This document shows, in pieces, positions 12,488 through 49,119 of a stretch of 52,329 nucleotides of DNA (position 1 is the stretch's first letter; each line of letters begins with the position of its first letter). A program made the position numbers and the translations under genes. The stretch is taken from assembly GCA_947588985.1 (NCBI GenBank), contig CANQBG010000008.1, positions 1 to 52,329 of the forward strand, read 5' to 3'. The DNA comes from an uncultured Clostridia bacterium. GTDB lineage: Bacteria > Bacillota > Clostridia > Christensenellales > Borkfalkiaceae. The notes under the pieces were generated by a model. That model was not told the origin of the DNA, did not search any database, and saw nothing but the letters and a program-made list of their open reading frames with translations.

Positions 12488-13822
12488 TTATGTGATGGGG
12501 CCATAGCGCTTTTCAAACTCCGCGCGCGTTAGCAACACTTTCCAAAAGGGACTGCCTTCGACGGGCGCGACGTAGCCCATGGCTTCCATCACGTTCAAAA
12601 ACTTGCACGCCTCGCCATAGCCGACCTTGCATTCATGGCGCAGGAAGGTGATGGAGGCCCGCCGTTTGACGACGCAGCTTCTGAGGGCGCGCACGAAGGC
12701 GGGGTCGTCGAGGCAGTCGGAAACGGTACCCGTGGGCGCGACTTCCGCCAATTCGATGATCTGCGTGATCGCGCCCATGAGCTTGACGAGCTGCTCCACG
12801 CCCTCCCCGAGGTTGTCGAACCCGATGCGCAGTTCCCCGTCGCGGACGGCGATCCCGTAGCGATTGGTGATCTCCTCCACGGCGTCCTCCACCTCCTCGG
12901 TGCGGCCCGTCTTGGCATACAGCTTATCGAGCGTGCCCTCGCGGTCGCTGATGTACTTCTCCTCCGCGGTATCCACGACTTGTAGGAGCATGGAATGATC
13001 GCCCTCGCGGGCTCCGCCGACGCGCACCAGAAAGCCCTTTTGGGCGGGCGTGAGGCAGAGGCCCATCAAAAACTCCTCCTTCTGCCGCTCAAACGCCGCC
13101 TCCGCGGGCGTCTGGGGCGGGGGCTCCTTGCCGAGCTTTGCGGCGTCCTCCCGCTGTTTGCGGACGAGCGCGGCGAAGCGTTCGGCCAGCGTCTGCGTCT
13201 GCTCGCTCGCCGTGGGGCGCTCGGGCTTCTTTTCCTCCTCCGCCTCCTTCACGGCGTCTTGCACCATGCGGCTGACGATCTCCTGCCTGTGCCGCTCGAG
13301 TTCTCTGCGGAAGGCCGCGAACGAATCGGATTCCGACGCGACGGGGCGTTCCCCTCCCGTCTTTCCGGGGACGGTGAAGGGTTCCAACCGGATATCTGCG
13401 TCGCGCGGCCGCGGGGACGCGCCCTCCGGATAGGCCAATTCGTCTTGGGGCGGGGCGGACGGCTTGGGCCGAAAATCTTCTTCGGGGCTCCATTTGGAAC
13501 TCATCAGACTCTCGAGCGTCACCGTGCTCTCCGCCTTCTTGGCGGGCGACTTGCCCTTTGCGGAAAAGGCGAGGAAGTGATCGCGCAACACGGCCATGTC
13601 GGCCGAGATGACGTATTGGCGCTTTTGGACCTGCACGAGCAACCCCAGCTCCTCGAGTTCCTCGATGAAGTCGCCCGCTTCCACGTCCTCTTCATAGGTA
13701 TTTTTATTCTCCTCCGTCACGAGTTCTGCGATCTCCTGAAAGGAGATGTCGCGCTCCCCGAGATTGCTCTTGAGCAAGAGGAGGCGCAGGACTGCGCGCT
13801 TGGGATCTCCGTTTTTATCCAT
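12488..13822 (-). CDS. DNA-binding protein with C-terminal FtsK-gamma winged helix, no motor
   Basis: 444 residues. Residues about 372-432 match the FtsK gamma domain: DPAFVRALRS, KRRASITFLRHECKVGYGEA, then VMEAMGYVAP and a KVLLT end, aligning with the KRKASIS/RIGYNRA/MEAQGIVS pattern of FtsK. In FtsK this domain reads polar DNA motifs and steers the translocase. Here there is no P-loop and no membrane segment. Residues 1-90 look like another winged helix, 95-290 are charged and probably disordered or coiled-coil, and 295-370 form an alpha/beta region. The ATG overlaps the stop codon of the upstream AAA-protease gene by 8 bases and has a GGAGGG ribosome site, so the two are coupled. It may guide the protease or regulate the block. 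Confidence 0.75.
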   Translation of the reverse strand: MDKNGDPKRAVLRLLLLKSNLGERDISFQEIAELVTEENKNTYEEDVEAGDFIEELEELGLLVQVQKRQYVISADMAVLRDHFLAFSAKGKSPAKKAESTVTLESLMSSKWSPEEDFRPKPSAPPQDELAYPEGASPRPRDADIRLEPFTVPGKTGGERPVASESDSFAAFRRELERHRQEIVSRMVQDAVKEAEEEKKPERPTASEQTQTLAERFAALVRKQREDAAKLGKEPPPQTPAEAAFERQKEEFLMGLCLTPAQKGFLVRVGGAREGDHSMLLQVVDTAEEKYISDREGTLDKLYAKTGRTEEVEDAVEEITNRYGIAVRDGELRIGFDNLGEGVEQLVKLMGAITQIIELAEVAPTGTVSDCLDDPAFVRALRSCVVKRRASITFLRHECKVGYGEACKFLNVMEAMGYVAPVEGSPFWKVLLTRAEFEKRYGPIT

Positions 13823-16673
13823 TTTCTCCCTCCAAGATATTTTTGAGCGCCTCGCCGTCGAGGCTGTTTTTGTCGATCAAGGCATTTGCGAGCGTTTCGA
13901 GGCGAGCACGGCCCTCGCGGATGAGGGTGCAGGCGCGCCCGTATTGCTCGTTCAGAATGCGTTTTACGCTCTCCGTCACCCAAGGGAGCTCGCGCTTTCC
14001 CTCTCCGACGACCATGAGCGAGCCGTCCATGCCGTAGTCGCAGACCATCTGTTCCGCCATCGCGGTGGCAGAGCGCAGATCGCCGGAGGCGCCCGTCGTC
14101 ACGCCGTCCTCGCCGTAAAATTCCACCTCGGCCGCCCGCCCCGCACAGGCGATGCAGATGCGGTCTAAAAGGTCCTTCGCCCGATACTCCGTCATCTTTT
14201 CATCGGCATAGTAGACGTAGCCGCCGTAGCCGCCGCGCGCCGTGATCGTGGTGTGCGTGGGAATGATGCCGAGCATGTAAGCGACGAAGGCGTGCCCGGC
14301 CTCGTGGAAGGCCGTCTTGCGGATGTGCTGTTCGTCGTAATGCTTGATCTCGCCGTCGGAAAAGCTCTCGAAGGCCTCGATGAGCAGTTCATCGGAGAGG
14401 ACGCGCTTGCGCTCCACACAGGTGCGCACCGCCCCTTCCACGACCAACCCGAGCTCCGCGAGCGACCACCCCACCGAGCGCGCCGCAATGGCGTGCACCG
14501 TCCGCGGGGAAACGGTGTGATTGCGCTTTGCGAGGAGACGTTCGAGATAGGTCTCCCGCGCCGCGATGTCGGGGAGCGGGACGCGGATGATGCGGTCGAA
14601 CCGGCGGAGGAAGGCCGCGTCGAGCGCGGAGCTGCCCCCTCCCTTCTTGGCGTCGAAGTTGGTGGCCGCGACGAGGAACACGGGGGAGACGCTCGTCTCT
14701 TCGAAGCCGTCGAGCTCGGAGAGCAGGGCGTTGAGCACATCGGATGTGTAGCGGGAGCCCTCGGTTTCGCGCGCCTTGGCGATGGCGTCGATCTCGTCGA
14801 GGAACAACACGCAGGGCGCGTATTTGCGAGCCGTGGAGAAGAGCTCGCGCAGGGCAGCCGCCCCCTCCCCCACATGCGAGCGGAGGAATTCCGTGGCGTT
14901 CCGCTGAATGAAGGGGAGCCCGGCCTCGTTGGCGAGCGCGCGCGCCATCATCGTCTTGCCCGTCCCGGGAGGGCCCACCATGAGCAGACCCCGCGGGATG
15001 CGGATGCCCTCGCGCAGGTAGTCCTTATAGCCCTTGAGCGCGCCGACGCATTCCATCAAGCTCTCCTTGAGCGCGTCCGCGCCGATGACGTCGGAGAGCC
15101 TGTCGCGCGGGATGCTCCGATCGCTCATCAAAAAGTCGCTGTCGTCCGCCGCGGGCGCCGTCTTTACGTCGATCCCCGAGACGGTGAGGAAGGCCCGTGC
15201 GCCGCGGAAGGAATACGTCGTCTGAAATCCGACGACTTTATTGGTGCGGAAGAGGGCGGTGGCGGCGCTGCCGAGCACCAGTCCGCGGTAGATCTCCCCC
15301 ACCCATGTCGCAAAGTCCGCGCGCGCGGGATAGTAAAATCCGTTTGCGCCGTTGTCGGTATAGGAATAGAAATCGGCGTCCGATGTGGCCCGCTGATCGT
15401 AGACGTAGACGGGGAGCTCGTGCAGGCAGACGGTATCGAAGAGCTTGCCCGAAAAGCGCGTGCGCTCCGTCCTGACGTCTAAAATGGCGGCCGCGTATTC
15501 GAGGGAACGGACGGACTTCATGTCGAAGTCGTCCTCCGCGTAAACGACGCGGATCTTGCTCGCCGCCGTCGTCCGGAAGTATTTTCTGTGCGAACGGGGG
15601 CAGCAGACGAGGACGGAGACGGCATCGGGAGAGAACACGCGGCGGGCGTCCTCCGTCGCATTGGAGAGGTCCATGCGGCAGACGACGGTATCGAAGAATC
15701 CCTCCCCGAGGCTCTTGCGCGTCTTGGCCATGCGCTCGAGATTGCGCTCGAAGAATTCCCGCACTGCCTTGAGAATCGTCCTTACGTCGGCCGCCTCTCC
15801 TTGGTTGAAGAGGATGAGCTCCGCGAGCGCCTCGGCGTCCGCTTCGAGACGGATGAGATAGAGGCTCTCGTAGAAGGCGATGTGTTCGCGGACGGCGTTT
15901 GCCGCAATGGCGTGGAGCACCTCCGGGCGGAGCTTATTGAAGAGGATGACTCTTCCCGAGGCCATGCGGGAGACGAGGGCGCCCGAAAAGACGCGGTCGC
16001 CCGTCAGACGGTCGCGCTCGGTGCGCAGCGCGTTCAGAATGGAGGCCTGCGGCGTCTTGGAGAGGCGGTAGCCGGCCGTCCCGCTATCGTAGATCGCCCG
16101 GCCCACGTTGGTGGTGAGGATGACGATGACGTCGCGGAAGCTCACCGACTGCTTGGTGTAGAGGTCCTGCACCTCCCCCCGTTCGAACACCTGCAAGAAG
16201 CGGTTGCGGACGTTGGGATGCGCCTTTTCGAATTCGTCGAGCAAAAGGACGCACACGGGGTGCTTTTGTACGAAAGAAGTGAGCATCCCCGCTTCCGCCG
16301 CCTTATAGGAGGGGTTGAGCCCGAAGGCGTCGCAATAGCTCTCCTTGTCGTTAAAGGTACTCATGTCGAGGCGAAGGAAGGGGCGGCCGAAGGCGCGGGC
16401 GATGGCCTCGGCCATGGCCGTCTTGCCCACGGCGGGCGGGCCCACAAAGGTCATGAGCCCCCCCACCCCCTTCAGGTTGCGGCGGTTGTTGATGCCGAAG
16501 AGATACTCCTTCACCTGTTGCACGGCGAAGTCCTGCCCGCGCAAAAAGGCGAGTTCGGCGTCTAACCTCTGTATGAGTTCGAAGTCCGCGCCGAGTTTTT
16601 CGTTGATGAATCCGAGATTGCTGCCCGCACCGTTGCCATAGAGGCCGGTGCTTTTGATCACGCCTCTGCTCAT
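13815..16673 (-). CDS. Soluble fusion of a Clp-type AAA module with an FtsH-like AAA-M41 metalloprotease
   Basis: 952 residues with no membrane segments. The N-terminal AAA module resembles the second ring of ClpA/ClpB (Walker A GPPAVGKT 78-85, Walker B VLLLDEFEKAH 142-152, sensor TTN). Residues about 345-505 form an alpha/beta region with a receiver-like look (LVCCPRSHRKYF, YAAAILDVRT). The C-terminal half is FtsH-like: Walker A GPPGTGKT (566-573), Walker B VLFLDEID (621-628), zinc site HEAGH (789-793) and a third-ligand candidate Asp in TTGASGDL (about 864). The peptidase therefore looks active. Ordinary FtsH is about 600-650 residues with two N-terminal membrane helices and one AAA ring. 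It probably unfolds and degrades cytoplasmic clients. The ATG overlaps the upstream stop codon (ATGA). Confidence 0.88.
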   Translation of the reverse strand: MSRGVIKSTGLYGNGAGSNLGFINEKLGADFELIQRLDAELAFLRGQDFAVQQVKEYLFGINNRRNLKGVGGLMTFVGPPAVGKTAMAEAIARAFGRPFLRLDMSTFNDKESYCDAFGLNPSYKAAEAGMLTSFVQKHPVCVLLLDEFEKAHPNVRNRFLQVFERGEVQDLYTKQSVSFRDVIVILTTNVGRAIYDSGTAGYRLSKTPQASILNALRTERDRLTGDRVFSGALVSRMASGRVILFNKLRPEVLHAIAANAVREHIAFYESLYLIRLEADAEALAELILFNQGEAADVRTILKAVREFFERNLERMAKTRKSLGEGFFDTVVCRMDLSNATEDARRVFSPDAVSVLVCCPRSHRKYFRTTAASKIRVVYAEDDFDMKSVRSLEYAAAILDVRTERTRFSGKLFDTVCLHELPVYVYDQRATSDADFYSYTDNGANGFYYPARADFATWVGEIYRGLVLGSAATALFRTNKVVGFQTTYSFRGARAFLTVSGIDVKTAPAADDSDFLMSDRSIPRDRLSDVIGADALKESLMECVGALKGYKDYLREGIRIPRGLLMVGPPGTGKTMMARALANEAGLPFIQRNATEFLRSHVGEGAAALRELFSTARKYAPCVLFLDEIDAIAKARETEGSRYTSDVLNALLSELDGFEETSVSPVFLVAATNFDAKKGGGSSALDAAFLRRFDRIIRVPLPDIAARETYLERLLAKRNHTVSPRTVHAIAARSVGWSLAELGLVVEGAVRTCVERKRVLSDELLIEAFESFSDGEIKHYDEQHIRKTAFHEAGHAFVAYMLGIIPTHTTITARGGYGGYVYYADEKMTEYRAKDLLDRICIACAGRAAEVEFYGEDGVTTGASGDLRSATAMAEQMVCDYGMDGSLMVVGEGKRELPWVTESVKRILNEQYGRACTLIREGRARLETLANALIDKNSLDGEALKNILEGENG

Positions 16674-16966
16674 TGGGTCCTCCTTTCGTCGCGCAATGCG
16701 GCGTAGTATTCTTCGAAGATCTCCTCCGAACAGGCCCGATCGCGGACGGGATAAAACTGTCCGTCCTCTCCGAGGCGGAAGGCGACGGCGGCCGTCTCCC
16801 CGAGGCCTAAGACGGGCTCCACAGGGCGAAGGATGAGATAGATCGCGCCTTCGCGTTCGGTGACGTAGATCTGCCTGAAATGCAGCGTGCGGCCCTGTTC
16901 ATCAGTCATGGCGATCGGCTTTCTGTTCTCTTTGTCCAAGAGGCTCCGATTGGGTGTGAGTTCCAT
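16670..16966 (-). CDS. DUF1292-like (YrzB-like) small acidic protein
   Basis: 98 residues. The core pattern, DEQGRTLHFRQIYVTEREGA then IYLILRPVEP, GEDGQFYPVRD and FEEYYAALRDE, resembles DUF1292 proteins (a beta-rich core with acidic insert and a terminal helix), whose molecular role is unknown. It begins with an ATG preceded by GAGGAGG and overlaps the fusion protease gene as ATGA, so it is the first gene of a three-gene unit. Canonical DUF1292 genes sit next to the Holliday-junction resolvase gene yqgF, which is not the case here, so this may be a dedicated adaptor copy. Confidence 0.6.
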   Translation of the reverse strand: MELTPNRSLLDKENRKPIAMTDEQGRTLHFRQIYVTEREGAIYLILRPVEPVLGLGETAAVAFRLGEDGQFYPVRDRACSEEIFEEYYAALRDERRTQ

Positions 16967-17042: not shown

Positions 17043-17069
17043 AAAAGTGCCATAGCAACGCTATGGCAC
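17043..17069 (-). terminator. Hairpin terminator after the membrane LRR protein gene
   Basis: Ten-base-pair stem GTGCCATAGC/GCTATGGCAC (17047-17056 and 17060-17069), three-base loop, with TTTTG following on the minus strand. It separates two transcription units. The plus-strand side continues into an A/T-rich run. Confidence 0.7.
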
Positions 17070-17091: not shown

Positions 17092-19473
17092 TCAGGTGCC
17101 CTTTTTTAAGTACTCCGGGCTCTCGTCCGTCCATTCGTTGAGGCCGACGAGATACTTTACGATCTTCTCCTGCTCGGTATCCCAAGAAAATCTGTCCTTG
17201 CGCGAAAACCATTCATAGACCTGCCACACACTGCCCTCCGGGAGCGTCACCTGCTTCAAGCGGGAACAGCCCACAAAGGCGAATGCGCCGATCACCGCAA
17301 CGCGGTCGGGAATGGAGATCTCCGTGAGGGCGGAACAGTTGCGGAAGGACGCGGTGGGCAATCGCTCGAGCGCCGCCGAAAGGCGTACCTCTTTGAGGAG
17401 GGTACAGCCCGAAAAGACCTCGTCACCGAGTGCGTTCACGCTGTCGGGCAGCGCGATGGCGGTGAGCGCCGTGCAGTTCTTCATGGCCGCGTTGCCCAAG
17501 GAGAGGAGCTCCGCGGGAAGCTCGAGCGCAGAAAGGCGGCTGCAATTTTCAAAGGCGTGCGCCCCGATCGTCCACACCGAATCCGACATCTTCACCTCCG
17601 AGAGGAAGGAGCAGTTGCGGAACGTCCCGTCTCCGATCTCTCCGATCCCATCCGGGATGACGGCCGACTGCAGCTTGTTGCCGCCCTCCTTTACGGGCGC
17701 GCCGATGCCCGTCACGCGGCGTCCGCCGATCTCCGTGGGGTATGTCACCTCGGACATGGTATAGGCGTACGTGTAGACGGTGGCCGTTCCGTCCGTCTCC
17801 ACTTCGTAATAGAAGCCGCCCTCGTAGCCGTCGTTGAAGTTCTGCGCGACGAGCAGCCAGCCGCAAAGCGCCCCGAAAATACAGAGCCCGAAGAGGGAAA
17901 AGGCACAGGCGCGCACCCCGTCCGAATCCGCGAATTCCCAATCGCAGCAACACCCCGCGATGATGAACGCCATCAGAAGCCCGAAGGAGAAATCCACCCA
18001 CAGCCACGCCCGCATGTTGCCCGAGAACCAGCCGATCAGAATGCAGACCGCCGCGAGCGCCCCCTCGAGCCCGACGGAGAAGCCGAGGGCACGGAAGTCG
18101 TAGGCGTCGGCCCCCATGGCCTGCGTGACGAGGTGCACCGCGGTGAGGCCGGCGAGCAGGATGGTGACGGCGAAGTAGGCCGCGTAGTCGGGGGAATCGC
18201 TCACGATATGTACGGCATAGGGAAGGCTCAAGAGGAGGAGCAGGCCGGCAAACTCGATCACCGAGAGGAGGATGCTTACCGCGCAGACCCCTTTGCCCCC
18301 GCGCGCGAAGTAGGACTTGAACTTGCGGAACGCGGCGGTGCGCCGCTTGCTCTTCGTGCGGCGATTATTTTCGCGCTCCTGCTTCTTCGCCTTCTTTTGC
18401 GCCTCTTTTTGGGCCTGCTCTTTGGCCCTTTCGGCCGCCAGCTCTTCCTCGCGGAGCTTGCGTTCCTCCTCGAGGAGCCGCCGCTTCTCCATCTTCCGGA
18501 TCCTGCGGTCCTCGATCGTCTCGCTCTGTCCCGCGCCGCCGAGCCCGCCGATCGCGTCTAAAATGGTGGCCGTGCTCTCGTCGATCTTGCCGCGCGTCTG
18601 TTCGCCCTCGGCGTGAACGTCGTGCTTGAGCTCCTCGATCCCGCTCAGGGTGCGGTCGAGCTTTTGTTTGCAATCACGAAGATCGGCAAGGATGACGTCG
18701 AGCTGCTTTTTGCAGTTTTCCGACCACGCCTCGCCCTCCGGCGTAAACTGCCCAAAGACGAGGGGCGCGCCGCACGCCTCGCAGACGCACTCCCACATCC
18801 CCCTCAGTTGCGCGCGTTCGAGCTTCTTCAAGGAGATGGGCGCATTGCAGTTCTCGCAGGTGAGAATTTGCGTTTTGAGAGCCTTCTTCGCGGACATGGG
18901 TGCCTCGGATTCCGTCTTGAGGAAGAGGCAATCGCGAATTTCCGCCGTGATCTCGTCCTTCAGCGTCGCGTTTTGCACCTCCACCGTGCGGGCGACGAGG
19001 TGCACGATCGCGTCGCTTCTCGAATCGAGTAGGCTCCGCCAATAGTCGGCAGCCGCCGCCTCGATGACGCCGAGCAGCTCCCCGAAGGGCTTTTCGAGTT
19101 CGGGATATTTCCCCGCGCGGGCCGATTGCAGAAGGCCGTCCGACCACGCTTTCAGGCTCTGCCCGCCGAGGTCCCCGAGCGCGGCCGCCGTAAGTTTTTT
19201 GGCGCTCCCCTTGCGCCACGAATAGAGGACCTTCCGCGGCAGGGGAAGGGTGGCCGCCAAGTCGTCGAGGAATTCCTTCGCATGCGGCAGCTTGGAAAAC
19301 GCCGCAAACTCCTTCGCCACGGCGCTCCCGTAATGTTTATAACGTTTGTACGCCACCACGGCGCGATCCTTGAGCGGCCTTACGGCGCTCTCGATGAGAT
19401 CGCTCGCGATCTCTCCGAGGATGTTCCCGGGGAGGTCTGCCGCGATGGCCGACATGCTTTCATAGAAATTCAT
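17092..19473 (-). CDS. Five-span membrane protein with zinc ribbon, coiled coil and C-terminal BspA-type leucine-rich repeats
   Basis: 793 residues, ATG with a CAGGAG ribosome site. An N-terminal helical region contains GNILGEIASDLIESA (17-31), nearly the same as in the soluble LRR protein encoded at 20328-22430. A linker has EAPMSAKKA (190-198). A zinc ribbon uses C206, C209, C231 and C234. A strongly charged coiled coil spans about 320-380. Five hydrophobic spans follow (about 395-420, 430-453, 463-484, 489-510, 520-543), then LRR_5 repeats (about 585-745: IPDGIGEIGDGTFRNC and similar). The basic pre-membrane segment predicts a cytoplasmic N-terminus and an outside LRR region. It looks like a transmembrane sensor or adaptor of the block. 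Confidence 0.8.
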   Translation of the reverse strand: MNFYESMSAIAADLPGNILGEIASDLIESAVRPLKDRAVVAYKRYKHYGSAVAKEFAAFSKLPHAKEFLDDLAATLPLPRKVLYSWRKGSAKKLTAAALGDLGGQSLKAWSDGLLQSARAGKYPELEKPFGELLGVIEAAAADYWRSLLDSRSDAIVHLVARTVEVQNATLKDEITAEIRDCLFLKTESEAPMSAKKALKTQILTCENCNAPISLKKLERAQLRGMWECVCEACGAPLVFGQFTPEGEAWSENCKKQLDVILADLRDCKQKLDRTLSGIEELKHDVHAEGEQTRGKIDESTATILDAIGGLGGAGQSETIEDRRIRKMEKRRLLEEERKLREEELAAERAKEQAQKEAQKKAKKQERENNRRTKSKRRTAAFRKFKSYFARGGKGVCAVSILLSVIEFAGLLLLLSLPYAVHIVSDSPDYAAYFAVTILLAGLTAVHLVTQAMGADAYDFRALGFSVGLEGALAAVCILIGWFSGNMRAWLWVDFSFGLLMAFIIAGCCCDWEFADSDGVRACAFSLFGLCIFGALCGWLLVAQNFNDGYEGGFYYEVETDGTATVYTYAYTMSEVTYPTEIGGRRVTGIGAPVKEGGNKLQSAVIPDGIGEIGDGTFRNCSFLSEVKMSDSVWTIGAHAFENCSRLSALELPAELLSLGNAAMKNCTALTAIALPDSVNALGDEVFSGCTLLKEVRLSAALERLPTASFRNCSALTEISIPDRVAVIGAFAFVGCSRLKQVTLPEGSVWQVYEWFSRKDRFSWDTEQEKIVKYLVGLNEWTDESPEYLKKGT

Positions 19474-19497: not shown

Positions 19498-20316
19498 TCA
19501 CTTGATCCCGCGGTCGCCCGAGCCCGTATCGAGATTGTCGGTCAAAAGCCTCTGGCCGTATTCATAGAGATAGAGATTGATTTCTCCGATGTCGTAGTGC
19601 TTCTCCCGGATGAAGTAGAGGACGATGGAATCGAACTTATCGCCGCGCAGCGCATAGCCGGCATGGCGGAAGAGGGACTCCGTCTCCTTCTCGTCGAGCA
19701 TGAGCCCGATGGCGAGGTTAAACACATTGGAACGGGAGATGGTAGAGCTGTTTACGATCCGCGAAAAGTCCTGCCGGCTGAAGTGCGCCCGCTTGTAGAC
19801 TTCCACATGATCCATGCCGCGCGTGCGGATGAATTCGGTCACGTATTTGCCGAAGGTATCCATCTCCTGCTGTTCGGAGAAGAATTCTTCGAGCTTTTTG
19901 CACGTGTTTTCGAAGTCGAGATAGGTCGTTTTGCGCTCTTCGCGGACGGGCGCCTTCTCGGGCGCCTTCTCGGTCTGCTTCTCCACCACTTTCTCCGTCT
20001 GCTTCTCAGACGTCTGTTTCCCGAAGCCGAGCATGGGGACCTCTACGGAGAACGTCGTGCGATAGAGCCCCTTGAGCTTGTGGAAGCCCGGCTCCTTCTG
20101 CGGGGAGATGTCGTAAAAATACCCGTATAGCTTCTTGCGCGCCGCCTCGTCCATGGAGGCATAGCCGTATTTTTCGAGGAGCGCACGGAGCTCCTCGTCG
20201 CAGAGCATGGAGTCGAGCAAGAGCCTCTCCCCCATCACATAGGGCGAATCCGTCGCCGTCTCGGGCGCGCGTGCTACGATGGCGCGCAAGGTTTCATTAA
20301 ATTTTGTGTTATTCAC
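19498..20316 (-). CDS. Unknown protein with C-terminal HTH-like helical domain
   Basis: 272 residues from GTG 20316, which has GGAGG 6 bases upstream. A GTG at 20331 is in frame but contains that ribosome site. Residues 1-85 form a helical region with LLLDSMLCDEELRALLEKYG. A charged linker repeats EKQTEKVVEKQTEKAPEKAP. The C-terminal about 110 residues follow a pattern I know from uncharacterised proteins in bacterial signalling and conflict loci: FIRTRGMDHVEVYKRAHFSR, then SRSNVFNLAIGLMLDEKETE, FRHAGYALRGDKFDSIVLYF, ending YDIGEINLYLYEY. This is XRE-like in helix pattern, but DNA binding is unproven. It lies between the two LRR protein genes. Confidence 0.65.
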   Translation of the reverse strand: MNNTKFNETLRAIVARAPETATDSPYVMGERLLLDSMLCDEELRALLEKYGYASMDEAARKKLYGYFYDISPQKEPGFHKLKGLYRTTFSVEVPMLGFGKQTSEKQTEKVVEKQTEKAPEKAPVREERKTTYLDFENTCKKLEEFFSEQQEMDTFGKYVTEFIRTRGMDHVEVYKRAHFSRQDFSRIVNSSTISRSNVFNLAIGLMLDEKETESLFRHAGYALRGDKFDSIVLYFIREKHYDIGEINLYLYEYGQRLLTDNLDTGSGDRGIK

Positions 20317-20327
20317 GGAATTCCTCC

Positions 20328-40608: not shown

Positions 40609-40622
40609 CTTTTTTTCCTCCA

Positions 40623-41261: not shown

Positions 41262-41335
41262 AGCCTCTCCCTGTTCGCGGAAAATTTTGCTGCGGGATCC
41301 CATGTTTTTCCCTGCTTTCCTGTTTTGTGTGTATG

Positions 41336-41552: not shown

Positions 41553-41927
41553 TCAGATGTGACTTTCCCAATCGTTCACTTGTTCGGTGATGACCTTGCA
41601 TTGCTGCTCGGTCGTCGTGAGCGTGCCGAGGGAGGTGTAGGAAGTTTCGATATAGGCGAGCGCTTCCCCGATCATCTTGGCGTTCTCCGCATTGCGGGGA
41701 TCGGGGGAATAGAGGAGGATGTCCAATCGATCCCGCGCCGCCTGCAACAACGCGATGATCCGAGCGACCTGGATTCTGTCCTCCTCGTCGTAACACGAAG
41801 CGATTTTCATGCGATCATTCAGGTTGTGGATCAATGCGTCCAACCGCCCGATCAAGGCGGGTTTTAGGGTTTCATAGACGTCGCGGGGATCCGCCTTTTT
41901 GCGAAATGGCCACATGTGCGCGCTCAC
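41553..41927 (-). CDS. Small helical protein of unknown function
   Basis: 124 residues from GTG 41927, whose GTGA overlaps the stop codon of the RuvB-like gene. An ATG at 41915 (MWPFRKKADP) is a possible alternative. It is predicted all-helical: a basic start, then KPALIGRLDALIHNLNDRMK, EDRIQVARIIALLQAARDRL and ENAKMIGEALAYIETSYTSL. There is no membrane segment and no catalytic motif. Its length and helix spacing would suit a helical-bundle adaptor. It is the last gene of its unit and is followed by a terminator. Confidence 0.65.
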   Translation of the reverse strand: MSAHMWPFRKKADPRDVYETLKPALIGRLDALIHNLNDRMKIASCYDEEDRIQVARIIALLQAARDRLDILLYSPDPRNAENAKMIGEALAYIETSYTSLGTLTTTEQQCKVITEQVNDWESHI

Positions 41928-43903
41928 TCCTCCTCGGCGGAAGTGTTCGCCGCGGGCGCTGGCTCCTCCTCGGGCAAGGCGCCGTCGAGAGGCAGATCGA
42001 TGGGCTCCACGATGTCGGGAATTTCGATGTCCTCCGGCTCCTCGGGCAAGGTGATGTCGGGCATGGGTGCCTCCGGAATCGTCGGTTCCGCGGAAACGGG
42101 CTCATCGGGCACGGAGGGCGCGGGCTCTTCGACTGCGGGAACTTCGGGCATGGGTGCCACGGGCTCTGCGGACGCGGGCGCCTCAGGCACAGAAGGTGCG
42201 GGCATGGGTGCCACGGGCGGCATTTTCGGAGGCTGCTCCTCGGGCATGGGTGGCTCCTTTTCGGTCTCGCCGTCCTTTCCGTCTTTGGGCCCTTTGCGCT
42301 CTCCGACGACGACTCCGTCTCCGAAATCGAAATATCCGTCGCGGAGGTAGTCGAGGGCGCGGTCCGTGAGCGAGCGGCCCCGCGAGATGATAGAGATGAA
42401 GCCGATCTTGATGAGATAGGGTTCGAACTCCTCGGTAAGCACGCCCTTGCTGAGGTAGACGCGTGCGGCCAAGGTTTCCTCTGCGATCGCGCCGGAGGGG
42501 TCGGCCTCGATGGCGTGCAGGATCTCGAGATCCTTGGAGCTGAGGCCGATGGGATCGCGGTCGATATCCTTGAAGTATTCCGCGATCATGGCCGGCGTGA
42601 CGAGTTCGGTGTTTTCGTTGACCGTCTTGCTCTTCAGGCCATCCACGATCGAGTTGACCTCGCGGATAGAGCTGCGGCAGCGGTTGATGCAATCGCGCAG
42701 AATGCTCTCCGTCACCTTCATCCCCTTGGCCGCAAACTTATTCAGGAAGATGCGGCGAAGCTCGTCGCGCGAGTAGTCCTTGAGATAGAAGGTGAGGTTG
42801 TGGCAGCGGTCCTTGATGGTGGCGAGGACGTCCTGCGCGTCCGTGGTGGCGCCGATGAAGGTGAATTCGTCGATGGGCAGTCTGTGCGTCTGGCCCGCGT
42901 CGTCGAGGTAGGAATAGACGCGGTCGTTGAGCAACGTCAAAAGCCCCGTCTGCAGATGTTTGGGCATGGCGTGGATCTCGTCGATCCCGATGACGACGGG
43001 CCGATTCTCCATGGCGATGCGCTGGAAGAATTGATTGACCCGCCGCTTGGATTTCACGTCGTTGGTAAACTGCCCCGCGTCCAAAAATTCAAACTCGACG
43101 CCGAGCTCCTTCGCAATGAGCTCCATGAGCGTACTCTTGCCGAGGCCGCGGTTGCCGAAGAGGAGGATGTTGTCGATGTGCTTCATCCCCTGCTTCTTGG
43201 CCGCGCGGATCTCCGCGAGCACCCGTTTTACGACGTGCTCCTGCCCGATGAACTCCGAGAGCGACTGCGGATCATACGTCGTTCCGCCGGAGACGATCTC
43301 TTCGGGAGCGATGGGTTCCTCCGCTGCGAACGCGGGTTCCTCGGACATGGGTGCCTCCGGTTCTGTGAAAGCGGGCTGTGCGGGCACAATGGGCCGGGGC
43401 TCTTCGTCGAGCTCCGGCATTGCGGGCTCTGCGGGCTCCGCGGGGGCTTCGGGCACTACGGGCTCCGCGGGCGCTACGGGGGCTTCGGACGCTACGGGCT
43501 CCGCGGGGACCTTCCCGGCGGCCGCGGGCGCCTTGCGGCGCTTGGGCTTTGCGCGCTCTTCGTCTAACACGCCCAACCACCCTGCTTCATCGAGGGGCGC
43601 GGAGGGACTGTTGACTTCGGGAAGCCCCGCGGGCACGGCCTTGGAGATCGCGAAGAAATCGAGGACGCGCCGATCGGTGAATTTCCCGCCGCGGATGAGC
43701 GCGGCGATCTGCGTGTAGAGATCAATGCACCCCGTGCACTTCGCCTTTTTCAAAATGGTCGGCTGCAAATTGTAAATTTCGCGGAAGTGCTCCGCCATCA
43801 TGCCGAGACACGTGGCGGCCTCCTCCGCGCGGGAGTGCTCTTCGAGGACGATCACGGCCTTTGCGCGCTGGAATAACGCCCTCAACTCTTCCATTGTTTT
43901 CAT
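41924..43903 (-). CDS. RuvB-like AAA+ ATPase with N-terminal helical domain and Pro-rich linkers
   Basis: 659 residues, about twice a normal RuvB. Residues 1-84 are a helical domain matching the N-terminus of the neighbouring protease (QPTILKKAKC here, APTVMARAKA there). Residues 95-205 are a Pro/Ala/Glu-rich linker. The AAA+ core has GNRGLGKS (250-257), IGIDEIH (305-311) and FIGATTD (349-355). Residues 453-520 are a RuvB-type winged helix (GLSSKDLEILHAIE, FEPYLIKIGFI, RGRSLTDRALDYL). Residues 545-659 are a second acidic Pro-rich tail with repeated APMP. No ruvA or ruvC is adjacent, so this is not the housekeeping branch-migration motor. It probably remodels protein or nucleic acid within this system. 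ATG with AGGAG. Confidence 0.85.
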   Translation of the reverse strand: MKTMEELRALFQRAKAVIVLEEHSRAEEAATCLGMMAEHFREIYNLQPTILKKAKCTGCIDLYTQIAALIRGGKFTDRRVLDFFAISKAVPAGLPEVNSPSAPLDEAGWLGVLDEERAKPKRRKAPAAAGKVPAEPVASEAPVAPAEPVVPEAPAEPAEPAMPELDEEPRPIVPAQPAFTEPEAPMSEEPAFAAEEPIAPEEIVSGGTTYDPQSLSEFIGQEHVVKRVLAEIRAAKKQGMKHIDNILLFGNRGLGKSTLMELIAKELGVEFEFLDAGQFTNDVKSKRRVNQFFQRIAMENRPVVIGIDEIHAMPKHLQTGLLTLLNDRVYSYLDDAGQTHRLPIDEFTFIGATTDAQDVLATIKDRCHNLTFYLKDYSRDELRRIFLNKFAAKGMKVTESILRDCINRCRSSIREVNSIVDGLKSKTVNENTELVTPAMIAEYFKDIDRDPIGLSSKDLEILHAIEADPSGAIAEETLAARVYLSKGVLTEEFEPYLIKIGFISIISRGRSLTDRALDYLRDGYFDFGDGVVVGERKGPKDGKDGETEKEPPMPEEQPPKMPPVAPMPAPSVPEAPASAEPVAPMPEVPAVEEPAPSVPDEPVSAEPTIPEAPMPDITLPEEPEDIEIPDIVEPIDLPLDGALPEEEPAPAANTSAEEE

Positions 43904-43924: not shown

Positions 43925-44917
43925 TCAGAGCTCGATCGAATATTTTTTGGTCCACGCGGCAAGCCGCTCGTCGATGAAATCCATGGGCGTCGCGTTGGTG
44001 AGGCCCTGCGATTCCACGCGCTGTCCGCCGCGGATGAAGGCGGATGTCACCGATTTGTTGATGCCGATACATTCCCCGTTGCGGTTGAACACCGGTCCGC
44101 CCGAGTCCCCCGGGTTGGAGGGCGCGGTGTAGACGAGGTCGCCCGAGTTCCCCTCATGCGTAAACTTGATGGTGCCGGGGATGGGTGCGAGCCCCATGGA
44201 GAAGGCGTTGCCGATGAGGATGACGTCGGCCCCCTGCTTCACGGCGGAATAATCGCGGATCCGCGGCACGACGACGGCCTTGGTGGGCAGTCCCCTCTCG
44301 AGTTGCAACAGCGCGAGGTCGTATTTCCCGTCGCTCGCGACGACATGTGCGTCGTATTGCTTGGAATCCTGTCCGAAGGATACCGCAACCGACGTGCAGA
44401 GCCGCCCGGCGGCCTCATCATAGACGACGTGCTCGTTCGTGAGGAGCAGGCCGTTTTTCGAAATGACGAAGCCCGTCCCGTTGGAATAGCCGACGACGCT
44501 CTGCGCGACCACCCGCACGACGCCGCATTGATACCGCTCGAAGAGGTCAGCGACCCACCCCTGCGAAGGGACCTCCACGGGGGGCTTGGGCTGCGCCGCC
44601 CGCGGGGCGCGCGGGATGATTTTGGGCGGATAGGAGGGGGGTGTCTCGGGCATGGGTGCCTTGTTTTCGATGAGACCGAAGGCCTCAAGGACTTTCGGCG
44701 TCACCCCCTCCATCCGAAGAATGCGCGCATACGAGAGGAACTGCTCGATCATGGCGTTTGCCTTGGCCCGCGCCATCACGGTGGGAGCGGAGAGCCGCAT
44801 CGCGTACAGGATATCGAGGATGGCGAGAACATCCTTCCTCGCCTCCTGCGCATTGCCCTGCTTGAGATAGGTCCTCGTCTCGGCATATAACTGTTTGAAC
44901 TTCAGCAGATCGTTCAT
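43925..44917 (-). CDS. Cytoplasmic trypsin-like serine protease with MIT-like N-terminal helices
   Basis: 330 residues. The catalytic triad is H163 (LLTNEHVV), D200 (KYDLALLQ) and S272 (NPGDSGGP), the pattern of HtrA/S1-type proteases, with no PDZ domain. There is no signal peptide or membrane anchor, which is unusual for the family and implies cytoplasmic action. Residues 1-82 form a helical domain related to that of the RuvB-like protein (FKQLYAETRTYLKQGNAQEA and APTVMARAKA), followed by a Pro-rich linker containing KAPMPETPPSYPP (about 86-118). It lies between the two AAA ATPase genes. The protease may process the coiled-coil proteins or another target when the ATPases deliver it (inference). 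Confidence 0.88.
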   Translation of the reverse strand: MNDLLKFKQLYAETRTYLKQGNAQEARKDVLAILDILYAMRLSAPTVMARAKANAMIEQFLSYARILRMEGVTPKVLEAFGLIENKAPMPETPPSYPPKIIPRAPRAAQPKPPVEVPSQGWVADLFERYQCGVVRVVAQSVVGYSNGTGFVISKNGLLLTNEHVVYDEAAGRLCTSVAVSFGQDSKQYDAHVVASDGKYDLALLQLERGLPTKAVVVPRIRDYSAVKQGADVILIGNAFSMGLAPIPGTIKFTHEGNSGDLVYTAPSNPGDSGGPVFNRNGECIGINKSVTSAFIRGGQRVESQGLTNATPMDFIDERLAAWTKKYSIEL

Positions 44918-44919: not shown

Positions 44920-46233
44920 TTACGGTTTGCTCTCCTTATTGGCACCTTTCCTCGCTTCCAGCGCCGCCTTTTCGCGGTCGAGCGCTTCCAACCAACGGAC
45001 GACGTGCCCGGGGAGCTCCTCCCCTGCCGCTCTCGCCGCATAGGCCTTGGGCCTGTACTGTTCGAGATACTCGAAGAGATCCATGCTCGCGCTGTAGGCG
45101 TCGAACTCAAACAGCATCTTGTCGGTGATGGAATTGATATAGCGTTGGATGACGTATTCGCAGTCCTGCTGCGTCACATAGGGATCGACGGGCGCCACGC
45201 CCTTATTTGCCGCGAGGATCTCCCGGTTGAGCGGGCGGTTGACGATCTGCCGGCAGACGGCCTTGATGTCCGCCCCCGAATAGCCGTCGAAGAGATCGAC
45301 GAGCCAATCGATGGTGACGTCGGGCGCGCAGGGCACGTCCACCCGCTTCTTGACGGAGGGATCCTTGCCGAGCGCGAGGGCGATGAGCTTACGGCGCGCA
45401 TCGGGGTCGGGAAGAGGGACGTAGATCTGCGTATCGAATCTTCCGCCGCGCTTTACGGCGCTGTCGAGGGCCCACGGGCGGTTGGTCGCCGCCACGATGA
45501 TGCGGATCTGCCCCTCTTTTACGCCCGAAGTGAAGCCGTCCATATTGGTGAGCAGCGTGGTGAGCTGTTCCTTGGTATGGCGGGATTCATCGTCGTCGCG
45601 GCTGGCGGCGATGGCGTCGATCTCATCGAAGAAGATGATACAGCGATCGTATTTTTTGGCCTGTTCAAAGACGGAGGCGATGATCTTGGCGCCGTCGCCC
45701 ACGAGGTTGGCCATGACGTCCTTGATCTGCACGACGGCGATCTTGCAGCCGAGCTGCCCCGCGAGGCACTTCACGATGTGCGTCTTGCCCGTGCCGGGAG
45801 GGCCGTAGAGCAAGATCTGAAGCCCCATGTCGCTCCGATATTTGTGATAGATGTGCGTATATTTGGGGTTGAGGGGCGCAAAGACGTTCAGCACGAATTC
45901 CTTGCGCACCTCGTAAAGGCCGGCAACGTCGTTGAGCGTGAGCTTGGGGACCTCGGCCGAGAACCAATCGGTGGAGGCGATGGCATTGCCCCCATCCGGA
46001 GCGGTCTTTTTGGGAACCGTTACTGCGGCATCCGCCAACTGTTCACGGATCTTTGCGGTGACGGAGGCATAGCGCGTCTTGAGCGCATCCGGCACGCCCT
46101 CGCGCGCGACCTCCCGCTCACCGATCTCGATGATCTTTCTGCCGATCCGGATCGCCGTCTGCATGTCACCGCTCTTGACCGCTTGATTATAAGCCTTGAT
46201 GTAATCGTTGAAGGCATCCATGGTAGTTGCCAT
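44920..46233 (-). CDS. Vps4/katanin-like AAA ATPase with N-terminal MIT-like domain
   Basis: 437 residues; ATG with AGGAGG. Residues 1-68 form a three-helix MIT-like domain (FNDYIKAYNQAVKSGDMQTA, IGRKIIEIGEREVA, ALKTRYASVTAKIREQLADA). The AAA core has GPPGTGKT (144-151), IIFFDEIDAIAASR (199-212), sensor AATNRP (248-253) and the arginine-finger loop RGGRFD (262-267). It continues with a Vps4-like helical lid (YSGADIKAVCRQIV) and a C-terminal helix region. Vps4 disassembles ESCRT-III filaments after its MIT domain binds their tails. Two coiled-coil protein genes precede this one in the same operon, which is the expected substrate arrangement. A proteasomal or FtsH-type ATPase is less likely because no such partner domain is present. 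Confidence 0.82.
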   Translation of the reverse strand: MATTMDAFNDYIKAYNQAVKSGDMQTAIRIGRKIIEIGEREVAREGVPDALKTRYASVTAKIREQLADAAVTVPKKTAPDGGNAIASTDWFSAEVPKLTLNDVAGLYEVRKEFVLNVFAPLNPKYTHIYHKYRSDMGLQILLYGPPGTGKTHIVKCLAGQLGCKIAVVQIKDVMANLVGDGAKIIASVFEQAKKYDRCIIFFDEIDAIAASRDDDESRHTKEQLTTLLTNMDGFTSGVKEGQIRIIVAATNRPWALDSAVKRGGRFDTQIYVPLPDPDARRKLIALALGKDPSVKKRVDVPCAPDVTIDWLVDLFDGYSGADIKAVCRQIVNRPLNREILAANKGVAPVDPYVTQQDCEYVIQRYINSITDKMLFEFDAYSASMDLFEYLEQYRPKAYAARAAGEELPGHVVRWLEALDREKAALEARKGANKESKP

Positions 46234-46247
46234 GATTTATCCTCCTA

Positions 46248-46934
46248 TCAGCCCTTTCTCTTCTCTTCGTCCATCGCCGCGATGATCTCGTCCACGTCGG
46301 TCGCGCCGTTGCCTGCTCCTGCGATTTGTTCTGCCGTGGCGGGTGTAGTATTCACGGGAGCTGCGACCATGCCGGACACGACGCCCGCTGCAAGACGCGC
46401 ATCCCGTGCGGCCTTCTCGGCCTCGAGGCGCTGCCTGTGTTTGGGATCCGCGGCCGCTTCTTTGGCATTGGTGCTGGTCAAATTTGCGAAGAAATCGGGA
46501 TTGTAGTTGGACTTCACTTGCCCGCGCAGTTCTTGCCGCATCTCGTGCAGGGAGAGGCGCGCCTTATCGAGCTCGGAACGGAAGGACTTCACGGACTTGC
46601 CGATCTTCTTGAAGTTGGGGGATGCGGAAAGGAGCCCCTTGCAGGCCTTTACGGCAGCGGGCAGCGTAGAGAGCTCCCCGAGGACGGCCGCAAGCGTAGC
46701 CTGTTGCAGGACCTGACGGTAGAGCGAATCGAGGTCGGCCACGATCTCGTCGTTTTCCACCTTCTCTTCTATCAGCTGGTTGGAATATTCGTCATCGCCG
46801 TTTTTGGCCGCTTCGTCGATCCATTCCGTGTAGAGCCCGGAGAGCGCGCGGAGCTTATCGGCTACCTGTTTGAAGGTGTTGAGCGATTCCGAAACCTTTT
46901 GCAGTTGTTTCTGCTTTTTCTGTGCTTCTGTCAT
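46248..46934 (-). CDS. Coiled-coil protein, possible ESCRT-III/Snf7-like filament subunit
   Basis: 228 residues, predicted almost all helix, with an AAGGAG ribosome site. A long N-terminal hairpin (1-85) leads to AVKACKGLLSASPNFKKIGK (95-114) and SVKSFRSELDKARLSLHEMR (114-133). This resembles the helix-3/4 pattern of CHMP2/CHMP3-type proteins (Met/Lys-rich, KI..M..F......A....E). An Ala/Lys-rich linker follows, ending in the isolated acidic-amphipathic tail ATDVDEIIAAMDEEKRKG (211-228), like a MIT-interacting motif. It lies 14 bases upstream of the Vps4-like gene. The assignment is by pattern, not by a strong motif. PspA-like or generic coiled coil are the alternatives. Confidence 0.55.
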   Translation of the reverse strand: MTEAQKKQKQLQKVSESLNTFKQVADKLRALSGLYTEWIDEAAKNGDDEYSNQLIEEKVENDEIVADLDSLYRQVLQQATLAAVLGELSTLPAAVKACKGLLSASPNFKKIGKSVKSFRSELDKARLSLHEMRQELRGQVKSNYNPDFFANLTSTNAKEAAADPKHRQRLEAEKAARDARLAAGVVSGMVAAPVNTTPATAEQIAGAGNGATDVDEIIAAMDEEKRKG

Positions 46935-46996: not shown

Positions 46997-47683
46997 TTAG
47001 CTGTGAAGCGTTGCGGAATTTTCGGCCTGCGCCGTCTCGGGAAGATCGACGACTTCCACATCATCGTCGACATCCAGATCGCCCATCTCGGCTCTCATCC
47101 GTGCATCTTCATCCATTTGGCTATGCCCGGTCAACCGATCGGTCTCGGCCTGTATCGTTTCGGCAATCTTTTGCTGGTTGGCACGTTGTTCCCGGTTATA
47201 CTCGTAATCCTTATCGATGATGTTCCAACGCTGCATTTGTTTGACGAAGTCAGCATCGAGCTCATCCAACAAAGCCAAAAGCATTTGATATTTATTTTGA
47301 TTGCCCGCAAGCCGCTTGAACTTTCTTGCAGGAAGTTTATAGACGATATACCAATATTTATTGAAGTCTGCCAACGTCTCCAAAAGACTGAGCAGTTCAT
47401 CCAACCTGAGACTGATGGTATCATAAACCAAGATTACCTGCTTTTTTCTCTCAAGCTCTTCCTGCCGCGCTTTATAAACTCTGTAAATTCTGCGCTGCTC
47501 CTCGACGGTAGTCGCTTTCTTGTATTGCCGAAACAAATCATCGATGGTTTGTTGCAGGACTTCTGCCTCTTGGAGGAATTTCTGTTGCCTGCTATTGCTG
47601 CTTGCTTGGCAATCTATCACCATCTGCGTCTCTTGTTGGGCCCATTTCTCAAAGGGCGCCGGCCTTCCCGTTTCTTTACTCAT
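46997..47683 (-). CDS. Second coiled-coil protein, possible ESCRT-III-like subunit
   Basis: 228 residues, with a long helical hairpin: FLQEAEVLQQTIDDLFRQYK, QRRIYRVYKARQEELERKKQ, then YDTISLRLDELLSLLETLAD and helices to about 170. It ends in an acidic tail (DLDVDDDVEVVDLPE) rather than a clear MIT-interacting motif. Size and helix order match the preceding and following genes' products and Snf7-type proteins. Its DNA is clearly more A/T-rich (about 38% G+C in a counted line) than the rest of the operon, suggesting separate acquisition or turnover. The ribosome site AAGGAG is 11 bases from the ATG. Confidence 0.5.
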   Translation of the reverse strand: MSKETGRPAPFEKWAQQETQMVIDCQASSNSRQQKFLQEAEVLQQTIDDLFRQYKKATTVEEQRRIYRVYKARQEELERKKQVILVYDTISLRLDELLSLLETLADFNKYWYIVYKLPARKFKRLAGNQNKYQMLLALLDELDADFVKQMQRWNIIDKDYEYNREQRANQQKIAETIQAETDRLTGHSQMDEDARMRAEMGDLDVDDDVEVVDLPETAQAENSATLHS

Positions 47684-47723: not shown

Positions 47724-48392
47724 TTACGCCTCGCTCGGCGGAGCGGAGAGCTTCAAGAGCGGCGCAACGCACTTGAACACCCCGATCAACCCGGTCGCCA
47801 TGGAGACCGCTTGCGACAGGATGGCGGAATGCGCGGCGATCGCCAACTGCATGCACAGATCCTTCAGGCTCTTTGCCGCATCCTGCGCCGACGCCTCGAC
47901 GCTTTCGGCCGACTCCATCACGTAGAGATAGTTGTAGTAGTTCAGGCAATAGCCTTTCTCGTATTTCAGGGATTGCTCCACGAGCTCCTTCGAACACTTC
48001 TCGATGGCCTTTGTCGCCCGCTTGCATTCCCGGGCGACCTTCTTCGGATCCAAACGCGCGTCGCCCGCCTTCGCCGCCTGCAAGACGGCGTCGCGGATAT
48101 GATCGAGGTGCTTCATGGTGTCCTCGCGGACTTCTTCGAACCCGATCTTCGCCTCTAAGACTTCGTCTATCTTCCGTTCGATTTCCTCCGTGGGCCTACC
48201 TGCCTCGAGCGCGACCCGATAGTCCTCCTCCACCCGATCCCGCCACCGATTGGCGATCACGACGGCAAACCGAAAATGGATCTCGGTCCGCACGCGAAGG
48301 AGATCGGCCGCAAGGAAGGCCTCCTGCCCTTTCCGCTTGCCTTTTTCGCTGTTCTGTTGGGACGATGTCGTCTCGTTTGGATCGGCCATCAT
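47724..48392 (-). CDS. Helical protein of unknown function with hydrophobic C-terminus
   Basis: 222 residues from the first of two consecutive ATGs (48392 and 48389), after AAAGGAGG. The second ATG has better spacing, so the true start is uncertain by one codon. The protein is mostly helical (FRFAVVIANRWRDRVEEDYR, IERKIDEVLEAKIGFEEVRE, DPKKVARECKRATKAIEKCS). The last about 40 residues are hydrophobic (AIAAHSAILSQAVSMATGLI, then GVFKCVAPLLKL), possibly a membrane-associating amphipathic helix. No catalytic motif is recognised. The longer frame continuing upstream overlaps the preceding gene and lacks a ribosome site, so it was rejected. Confidence 0.65.
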   Translation of the reverse strand: MMADPNETTSSQQNSEKGKRKGQEAFLAADLLRVRTEIHFRFAVVIANRWRDRVEEDYRVALEAGRPTEEIERKIDEVLEAKIGFEEVREDTMKHLDHIRDAVLQAAKAGDARLDPKKVARECKRATKAIEKCSKELVEQSLKYEKGYCLNYYNYLYVMESAESVEASAQDAAKSLKDLCMQLAIAAHSAILSQAVSMATGLIGVFKCVAPLLKLSAPPSEA

Positions 48393-48402
48393 CTTCCTCC
48401 TT

Positions 48403-49119
48403 TCAAGATTGCGCCGGGAGACCGGAACTCGGCGGGATGGGGATATAGTGAATGAGCTTGATCGCGCCGACGACGAATCCGCATCGGGTGCCCGCTTCGA
48501 CGAACTCCAAATAGGCGTCATCCTCCCGGAGGGCCTCGTTGAGCGCGGCTTCATACTCCATCGCACTCGCAAATTCGCGGTCTGCAAGTTTCATCGCCGC
48601 GCCCTTGATATACGTGAGCGCTTCCTCCTTGAGGAACTGCCCCACGCCGAAGGCCCCGCGATCCGACTGCTTTTCCCAAAAGTAATAGGTGGCGCCGCTC
48701 TCCGTCCATGCGTACTTCGGAGGGACCCAGCCCCGCAGCCGTTCGACGAAGTCCCTTTCCGTGACTTTCTCGAAGGCGACATGCACGGTGCCCTGGATCT
48801 TGGCATGGCACTGCGGGCAGGTGATCGGCCCGATGCCCCAATTGAAATCGAATTCTCGGCCGCCCGTCGGGAAGAACTGCAATTCCACGCGCGCATTTTC
48901 CTGTTTCCATGCGCCGTATTTGAACTTTCCCCCCTCCTTCCGATAGGACAGGAGCACGACGGAATCGTAGCCGAGCTGCTGGCCGCAGACTTCCGCCGTC
49001 TTTCCCCCGGCCGTGGCCAGCCAATGATATTCGCTGTTCCCCCGCTGTGCCTCCGCGCTCGTCCAATCGAGGTCGGCAAAGGCCGCGAGGAACTCTTTTT
49101 GGAAAGAAATGGTCTGCAT
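48403..49119 (-). CDS. Unknown protein, first gene of the ESCRT-like/AAA unit
   Basis: 238 residues. The N-terminal half is alpha/beta (FLAAFADLDWTSAEAQRGNS, GYDSVVLLSYRKEGGKFKYG, VELQFFPTGGREFDFNWGIG) and carries a single CPQCH that may be half of a zinc site. The C-terminal half includes YAWTESGATYYFWEKQSDRG and a helical segment. There is no signal peptide or membrane span. I do not recognise a family. It is the promoter-proximal gene, with a TTGACA/TATAAT promoter only about 20-48 bases upstream, so the leader is very short. Its position suggests a recognition or scaffold role, but this is only context. Confidence 0.65.
   Translation of the reverse strand: MQTISFQKEFLAAFADLDWTSAEAQRGNSEYHWLATAGGKTAEVCGQQLGYDSVVLLSYRKEGGKFKYGAWKQENARVELQFFPTGGREFDFNWGIGPITCPQCHAKIQGTVHVAFEKVTERDFVERLRGWVPPKYAWTESGATYYFWEKQSDRGAFGVGQFLKEEALTYIKGAAMKLADREFASAMEYEAALNEALREDDAYLEFVEAGTRCGFVVGAIKLIHYIPIPPSSGLPAQS

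Follow-up and report, generated by a model that had tools for sequence, protein, structure and literature searches.

A 36.6-kb single-strand gene block in a Borkfalkiaceae genome as a stack of accessory modules, one of them a candidate bacterial ESCRT-III/Vps4-like system

The window analyzed here is the whole 52,329-nucleotide stretch of contig CANQBG010000008.1 (contig C8 of the 1.6-Mb genome G000, which is in 69 contigs and 83.5% complete), and the subject of this study is a 36.6-kb block of 18 accepted genes within it (positions 12488–49119), numbered from w18, transcribed first, to w01. The choice among overlapping open reading frames (ORFs) within the block was our own. The block is flanked by pgi (10604–12031, plus strand) and by a rubredoxin gene (49438–49845, minus strand). 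An earlier note on this DNA, made from the sequence alone, had placed all the genes between these flanks on the minus strand, tightly coupled and with three breaks, and both statements were confirmed: neighbouring genes lie −11 to 62 nt apart, except for three gaps of 620 nt (w12/w11), 84 nt (w07/w06) and 125 nt (w04/w03). Comparison with related genomes divides the block into module B (w18–w12), with a candidate ESCRT-III (endosomal sorting complex required for transport III)/Vps4-like set, module C, built on the GTPase w10, its membrane partner w09 and the giant Hint protein w07, and module A (w03–w01). Modules B and C meet at the 620-nt gap, C and a group of leucine-rich repeat (LRR) genes at the 84-nt gap, and this group and module A at the 125-nt gap.

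The core of module B is formed by four genes on the minus strand. The gene w15 (46248–46934) encodes a helical protein of 228 amino acids (aa), proposed from profile and fold comparisons to be an ESCRT-III-like filament protein. It is followed by w14 (44920–46233, 437 aa), a Vps4-like AAA ATPase by profile (AAA at 1.3e-35, with AAA_lid_3, both over the Pfam cut-offs) and by tree, with N-terminal helices that are MIT-like in a weak comparison; by w13 (43925–44917, 330 aa), a trypsin-like serine protease (Trypsin_2, 2.9e-24) with an N-terminal helical domain; and by w12 (41924–43903, 659 aa), a RuvB-like AAA protein with RuvB_N and winged-helix RuvB_C matches over the cut-offs and a w13-like N-terminal domain. 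The triad of w13 (H163, D200, S272) is invariant in 4/4 relatives. No hydrophobic segment was found in w12, w13, w14, w15 or the module A protein w02. Upstream of w15 lie w18 (48403–49119, 238 aa), the first gene of the unit and an ORF with no Pfam match, w17 (47724–48392), a 222-aa helical protein with no family over the cut-off, the start of which was placed inside a 287-aa ORF, and w16 (46997–47683), a 228-aa helical protein with helical counterparts at the same position in the loci L085, L067 and L083.

Module C opens with w11 (40623–41303, 226 aa), an ORF, followed by w10 (38176–40623, 815 aa), a P-loop GTPase that carries the zinc-ribbon motif CPYC, w09 (35623–38166, 847 aa), with three hydrophobic C-terminal segments, w08 (34456–35607, 383 aa), anchored by one N-terminal hydrophobic segment and with a relative in L090 that has a Glug motif, and w07 (22515–34466), a 3983-aa surface protein with one N-terminal hydrophobic segment, List-Bact (Flg_new) repeats over the cut-off and a weak C-terminal Hint match. 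The P-loop, D-x-x-G-E and TKFD motifs of w10 are kept in its relative in genome G093, and CPYC and D[IA]-x-G-E are present both in w10 and in the L090 GTPase. L090 also encodes a shorter w07 relative with Flg_new repeats and Hint, and a 740-aa protein with the position and plan of w09, the two having no significant blastp match; the GAP1 models matched neither w09 nor this counterpart. Another giant surface-type gene, for a 2514-aa YDG-repeat protein, was seen near module A of G110 (L070:1179–8723).

The LRR group consists of w06 (20328–22430, 700 aa) and w04 (17092–19473, 793 aa), both LRR_5 proteins over the Pfam cut-off and the latter with five hydrophobic segments, and, between them, w05 (19498–20331, 277 aa), with relatives in L067 and L083. 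In module A, w03 (16670–16966, 98 aa) adjoins the Clp-FtsH fusion in 4/4 close relatives, as in the window. The fusion w02 (13815–16673, 952 aa) combines a Clp-type AAA_2 with an FtsH-type AAA and an M41 protease domain, all over the cut-offs (Peptidase_M41 at 103.2 bits, cut-off 29.9), and has no transmembrane (TM) segment. The last gene, w01 (12488–13822, 444 aa), encodes a C-terminal FtsK-gamma domain (FtsK_gamma, 9e-10) without the FtsK motor. A two-gene counterpart of the fusion, adjacent clpK and ftsH, occurs on plasmids, e.g., NZ_CP013712.1; 3435 plasmid records matched the fusion, none of them with 80% of it in one place. The gene content listed in the earlier note thus held for the Clp-FtsH fusion, FtsK-gamma, the RuvB-like protein, the trypsin, the AAA protein and the two LRR proteins by Pfam, and the hydrophobic segments of w09 and the lack of a TM or signal segment in w13 agree with the membrane partner and the cytoplasmic trypsin described there; its Hint and GTPase assignments correspond to matches below the cut-offs (Hint 21.7 bits vs. 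29.7; DO-GTPase1 15.0 bits vs. 27, over 21 residues only).

The transcription signals considered here all lie on the minus strand. A sigma-70-like promoter-like site scoring 12/12 (49167–49138) lies upstream of w18, a second one scoring 10/12 with a TG (41365–41336) lies inside the 620-nt gap before w11, and a terminator-like hairpin of 10 pairs with a T tail (17047–17069) follows w04 in the 125-nt gap. Neither this gap nor the 84-nt one has a listed promoter-like site. Promoter-like sites were found overall about as often as in shuffled sequences (7 and 7, against means of 5.6 and 5.0), so that these calls are made on position and score alone.

The distribution of the block was followed in 151 genomes of the same family, the window's own included. 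A full-length match to the fusion w02 was found in 12 of them and its close form (at least 44% identity) in five; a w13-type trypsin above 200 bits occurred at four places in three genomes, with some trypsin match in 76; and the GTPase w10 was matched in two. The Vps4-like profile reached 1e-60 in 20 genomes and exceeded 550 bits at five places in four genomes. From this sparse presence the parts of the block are considered accessory.

In G123, a genome of the same genus, the order is helical proteins, w15-like, Vps4-like, trypsin, two-TM, LRR-TM and RuvB-like, continuing with two-TM, TIR-like/LRR, w05-like, w03, fusion and FtsK, which is the order of the window for A, LRR/w05 and B, minus module C. 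One protein in the B block of G123 (L067:5319–8387) joins a TIR-like region (below cut-off), a zinc ribbon and LRR_5. B and w05 stand together on a 12-kb contig of G137, and the window's own genome holds, on contig C4 (L085 and L086), a second B copy with w03-like and FtsK genes and without the fusion. The w01 relatives in G123 and on this contig carry an FtsK-like motor, by reading; a gene lying beyond the second B copy presumably encodes a TraG/VirD4-type coupling ATPase. In G042, G110 and G082, w03 and the fusion occur without a w13-type B. Finally, C stands free in G093, where a 39-kb contig that lacks A and B encodes a giant Flg_new/Hint protein, a w08-like protein, a 740-aa TM protein and a GTPase; no w13-like trypsin and no AAA at 1e-60 were found in that genome, and the fusion was matched in its FtsH half only.

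A and B overlap in two genomes against 0.1 expected (p 0.0026, ignoring phylogeny); since the window genome was picked for having both, the overlap without it is one genome (p 0.053). Linkage of A and B is judged likely, and C is taken to be independent of both; the block is read as stacked accessory modules, and a single machine is not supported. One machine for all 18 genes, tried as a candidate, was rejected on account of module C standing alone, and the shared cytoplasm-to-surface machine that had been proposed is not supported, given the low counts of the GTPase, the close fusion and the w13-type trypsin. The co-occurrence foreseen along with it was seen for A, LRR/w05 and B, which are collinear in G123, and for the w03-like and FtsK-gamma genes that flank B on contig C4, and was not seen for C; the scattering that had been named as evidence to the contrary was thus found in part. 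On the pgi side, none of four relatives (G009, G846, G883 and G105, over 17.4, 4.1, 2.3 and 14.1 kb) has a gene of A, B or C, LRR matches occurring there in G883 and G105, and the same was found on the rubredoxin side in the two of the four that are readable there. In nearly all listed genomes pgi and the FprA gene are on separate contigs, and for this reason no clean empty site is claimed.

The ESCRT-III question was approached through the relatives of w15. When the Snf7 profile was searched in six frames against the 151 genomes, the top place was the w15 paralogue on contig C4 (19.4 bits), the second a 188-aa gene in an SPFH/AAA/trypsin operon of G117, and the sixth the w15 homologue of G123 (15.4 bits). 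Both w15 relatives are under the cut-off of 27.3 bits and score like Snf7 places near archaeal CdvC: of the 25 Snf7 places in 12 archaeal genomes, eight lay within 3 kb of CdvC, at 9.9–22.9 bits. Relatives of the 188-aa type gave Snf7 at E ≤ 1 in 12/25 (best 2.8e-8), and one of this type (L253), more distant from w15 than its paralogue and its G123 homologue, scored 34.0 bits, over the Pfam cut-off. The Pfam matches of the w15 relatives were to Snf7 and not to PspA. Comparison of the w15 set with the 188-aa set by hhalign gave 73% over 109 columns, or 91% over 134 columns with two bridging rows. A structure model of w15 had ESCRT-III superfamily members in its first 11 of 50 rows. Across the structure lists of w15 and the 188-aa protein, ESCRT-III rows fitted at 2.5 Å over 105–110 residues and bMERB rows at 3.7–5.4 Å; in the VIA-align lists used, the absence of a family does not mean dissimilarity. 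In the 188-aa set, 13 of the 25 rows end in a strict MIM1-like pattern, in the form we take it to have (shuffled mean 0.07, the rows being related); it was absent from all 6 rows of the w15 set. These modelled and profile resemblances make an ESCRT-III fold of w15 and its relatives, with an alpha1–alpha2 hairpin core and alpha3–alpha5, a suggestive, not a decisive, assignment. The ESCRT-like/Vps4-like guess made earlier gained new support from these comparisons. As a second ESCRT-III protein, w16 was tried and set aside; it gave 0.1% and 0.2% against the ESCRT-III and MIT sets, which, the w16 alignment being poor, amounts to no evidence.

At the level of the order, 28 of the 297 genomes searched, from 17 of 125 genera, have the 188-aa type, as distinct from that of w15; a phylum-wide sample without a positive control in it gave 0 of 398 genomes. 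Among 20 loci with flanks of about 1.5 kb around this gene, 18 contained an AAA with a match to the Vps4 profile. Three copies of the gene were seen in each of G638 and G772. Two further layouts were noted. On an 8.9-kb contig of G110 (C50, L093:396–8239), two AAAs, two ESCRT-III-like helical proteins and a coiled coil lie with an SPFH-like protein with a zinc ribbon, a zinc-ribbon trypsin and a TM protein; on a contig of G120 (C11, L203:1843–10923), the genes are for a trypsin, 280 aa, 427 aa, an ESCRT-III-like protein of 185 aa, an AAA with lid_6, a RuvB-like AAA and 581 aa.

In an unrooted tree, all the AAAs of these operons, w14 among them, fall on one side (28 bacterial rows, support 100/98). 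Archaeal CdvC, Cdc48, FtsH and six further bacterial AAAs are outside it, and 13 archaeal CdvC rows form a clade of their own (100/100). A recent transfer of archaeal CdvC was rejected on this tree. The side with w14 takes in a Blautia metagenome-assembled genome (MAG; L109) as well as one from Clostridia (L104), in both of which the AAA adjoins a 188-aa-type gene; in a MAG from Chloroflexi (L094), a relative at 68 bits lies 3.5 kb from a Vps4-like AAA outside the tree. Against NCBIfam CdvC, w14 scored 138.8 bits (cut-off 650), a cut-off that none of the 12 archaeal genomes passed either (best 587.3). The contig scan with the Vps4 set covered the best 80 of 568 relatives (589 stretches), mostly Cdc48-like AAAs, so that nothing follows from absences in it. 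The MIT profile was matched by 3 of 11 AAA N-termini (best 1.7e-4) and TPR_2 by 2 of 11; three further AAA N-termini had no MIT match. The N-terminal domain common to w12 and w13 compared with the AAA N-terminus set at 79% (controls 0.2%), and the w14 set's own N-terminus more weakly (45% and 21%). Profile searches of these domains against PDB returned mainly designed helical and TPR proteins, with mouse 1wfd, which we take to be an MIT domain, at E 0.28.

The block is probably best explained as a stack in which module B is a bacterial ESCRT-III/Vps4-like system, A a soluble unfoldase-protease and C a separate conflict-type system. From gene content, gaps, distribution, and profile and fold resemblance we infer how module B would act. 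The protein w15, perhaps with w16 and w17, would form a membrane-associated helical polymer, which w14 would bind through its MIT-like N-terminus and disassemble. Both w13, as a cytosolic trypsin, and the RuvB-like w12 would be recruited to the same polymer through their related N-terminal domain, in the way that the MIT-bearing protease CAPN7 joins IST1 in human cells, so that polymer turnover would be coupled to local proteolysis where a membrane is stressed or invaded. MIT-bearing proteases and AAAs that bind ESCRT-III tails in human cells, as given in the accessible text of PMC9477494, serve as the model for this proposed mechanism. Module A would be a soluble unfoldase-protease with a DNA-binding partner, able to travel with B; the LRR and two-TM proteins are likely sensors and effectors; and C would be a separate GTPase-centred conflict-type system lying between A and B. 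A role in defence is suggested by the LRR, TIR-like and two-TM neighbours together with the patchiness, and a role in repair by the link of ESCRT with SPFH. A wider claim can be put forward tentatively, at not quite an even chance: that this order, together with some bacteria outside it, has a complete ESCRT-III/Vps4 machine of deep lineage, not lately acquired from archaea. In it, a family of MIT-like adaptor domains would connect a Vps4-like AAA, a trypsin and a RuvB-like AAA to one membrane polymer, giving a membrane-activated protease for repair or immunity.

A serious, if tentative, alternative is that module B is a defence system like IetAS, with coiled-coil scaffolds that merely resemble ESCRT-III and with the LRR, TIR-like and two-TM proteins as sensors or effectors. 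Among defence models, PADLOC IetA matched w14 best (133.5 bits, with no cut-off stated), LRR_5 proteins lie inside B in G123 and on contig C4 with two-TM proteins beside them, one LRR_5 protein has a TIR_2 match under the cut-off (1.3e-4), a SLATT_1/DUF4231 protein adjoins A in G110, and the patchy presence of the parts also fits defence. However, w14 is under the NCBIfam IteA cut-off (115.4 bits vs. 510), and this alternative leaves the Snf7 and MIT matches unexplained. IetS is a subtilisin and not a trypsin. The 188-aa gene was not seen on phages or plasmids: viral contigs held no relative of it by tblastn and one weak trypsin relative (30%), and a plasmid search gave no match. The alternative is compatible with the ESCRT-III/Vps4-like explanation if the ESCRT part is a defence machine.

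It is unlikely that w15 and the proteins related to it are adaptors of a generic, helical coiled-coil type, such as bMERB- or BAR-like hairpins, with no ESCRT-III descent and with Snf7 matches arising from composition. Several results weigh on this side: w15 itself had no Pfam Snf7 match, the scores of its relatives are low, the structure models are of low confidence, bMERB domains head the structure list of the 188-aa protein, and chemoreceptor and RipA hairpins are close in that of w15. Against the adaptors stand the member over Pfam's curated Snf7 cut-off, the Snf7 search that finds the right genes twice among its first six places, plus the G117 sister operon, the neighbouring Vps4-like AAAs with MIT-like N-termini and the better fit to ESCRT-III than to bMERB. 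That the whole block is one co-transcribed and co-functioning machine, as its single strand, tight spacing and the collinearity of A, LRR and B in G123 might suggest, is highly improbable, with C lacking A and B in G093, A and B lacking C in G123, the promoter-like site and 620-nt gap dividing B from C, and the terminator-like hairpin dividing w04 from A.

The combination of ESCRT-III, Vps4 and MIT adaptors is regarded as a feature of archaea and eukaryotes, and a set in bacteria with an AAA clade of its own, such as module B may be, bears on the age of the Vps4–ESCRT-III partnership. An MIT-like protease would be a simple and testable link from membrane remodelling to proteolysis. As a caution, long single-strand blocks may be stacked separate accessory modules.

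In the accessible text of a 2024 survey (PMC11188069), ESCRT components are identifiable in archaea and eukaryotes and "not in bacteria", apart from PspA. That of PMC11237479 (mSystems 2024) describes Snf7 or PspA proteins that occur with AAA+ ATPases in bacteria, as well as transfers of Vps4-like AAA. The kind, Snf7 with AAA+ in bacteria, is thus known; literature searches found no bacterial ESCRT-III/Vps4/protease set, nor one with a RuvB-like AAA and a shared adaptor. The members in PMC11237479 are like module B in their Snf7-type protein and AAA+ ATPase and unlike it in being partnered by an ABC transporter and by OmpA/PBPB; that portion of the paper names no trypsin, SPFH, RuvB-like or LRR protein. 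Module C resembles the GTPase-centred conflict systems with DO-GTPase and GAP1-N2 of eLife 2020 (PMC7159879), as far as the accessible text goes, in the zinc ribbon of its GTPase, the glutamate after D-x-x-G, the partner with C-terminal TM segments and the large repeat protein; it differs from them in that DO-GTPase1 is under the cut-off, no GAP1 model matched, and the giant is a Flg_new/Hint and not an FNIII protein. With FtsH, w02 shares its AAA and M41 half; unlike FtsH, it has an extra Clp-type AAA_2 half, no TM segment and a score below the family cut-off (NCBIfam FtsH 306.7 bits vs. 600). With IetAS, module B has in common a classical AAA and a serine protease, and differs in its w14 score, its trypsin fold and its ESCRT-III-like partner. 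Bacterial PspA/Vipp1 and PSP loci are alike in the ESCRT-III superfamily fold, suggested for w15, and in the SPFH protein near the sister operons, as described for PspA loci with YdjI, and unlike in that the w15 relatives match Snf7 and are accompanied by a dedicated AAA with an MIT-like domain and a protease. With archaeal Cdv (CdvB–CdvC) is shared an arrangement of an ESCRT-III-like gene adjoining a one- or two-AAA ATPase with an MIT-like N-terminus and, by reading, a C-terminal helix of the Vps4 kind, which we take to be a hallmark; unlike Cdv, module B has a bacterial host and an AAA in a clade separate from the 13 CdvC rows, and adds a trypsin and a RuvB-like protein whose N-terminal domains are of that same type.
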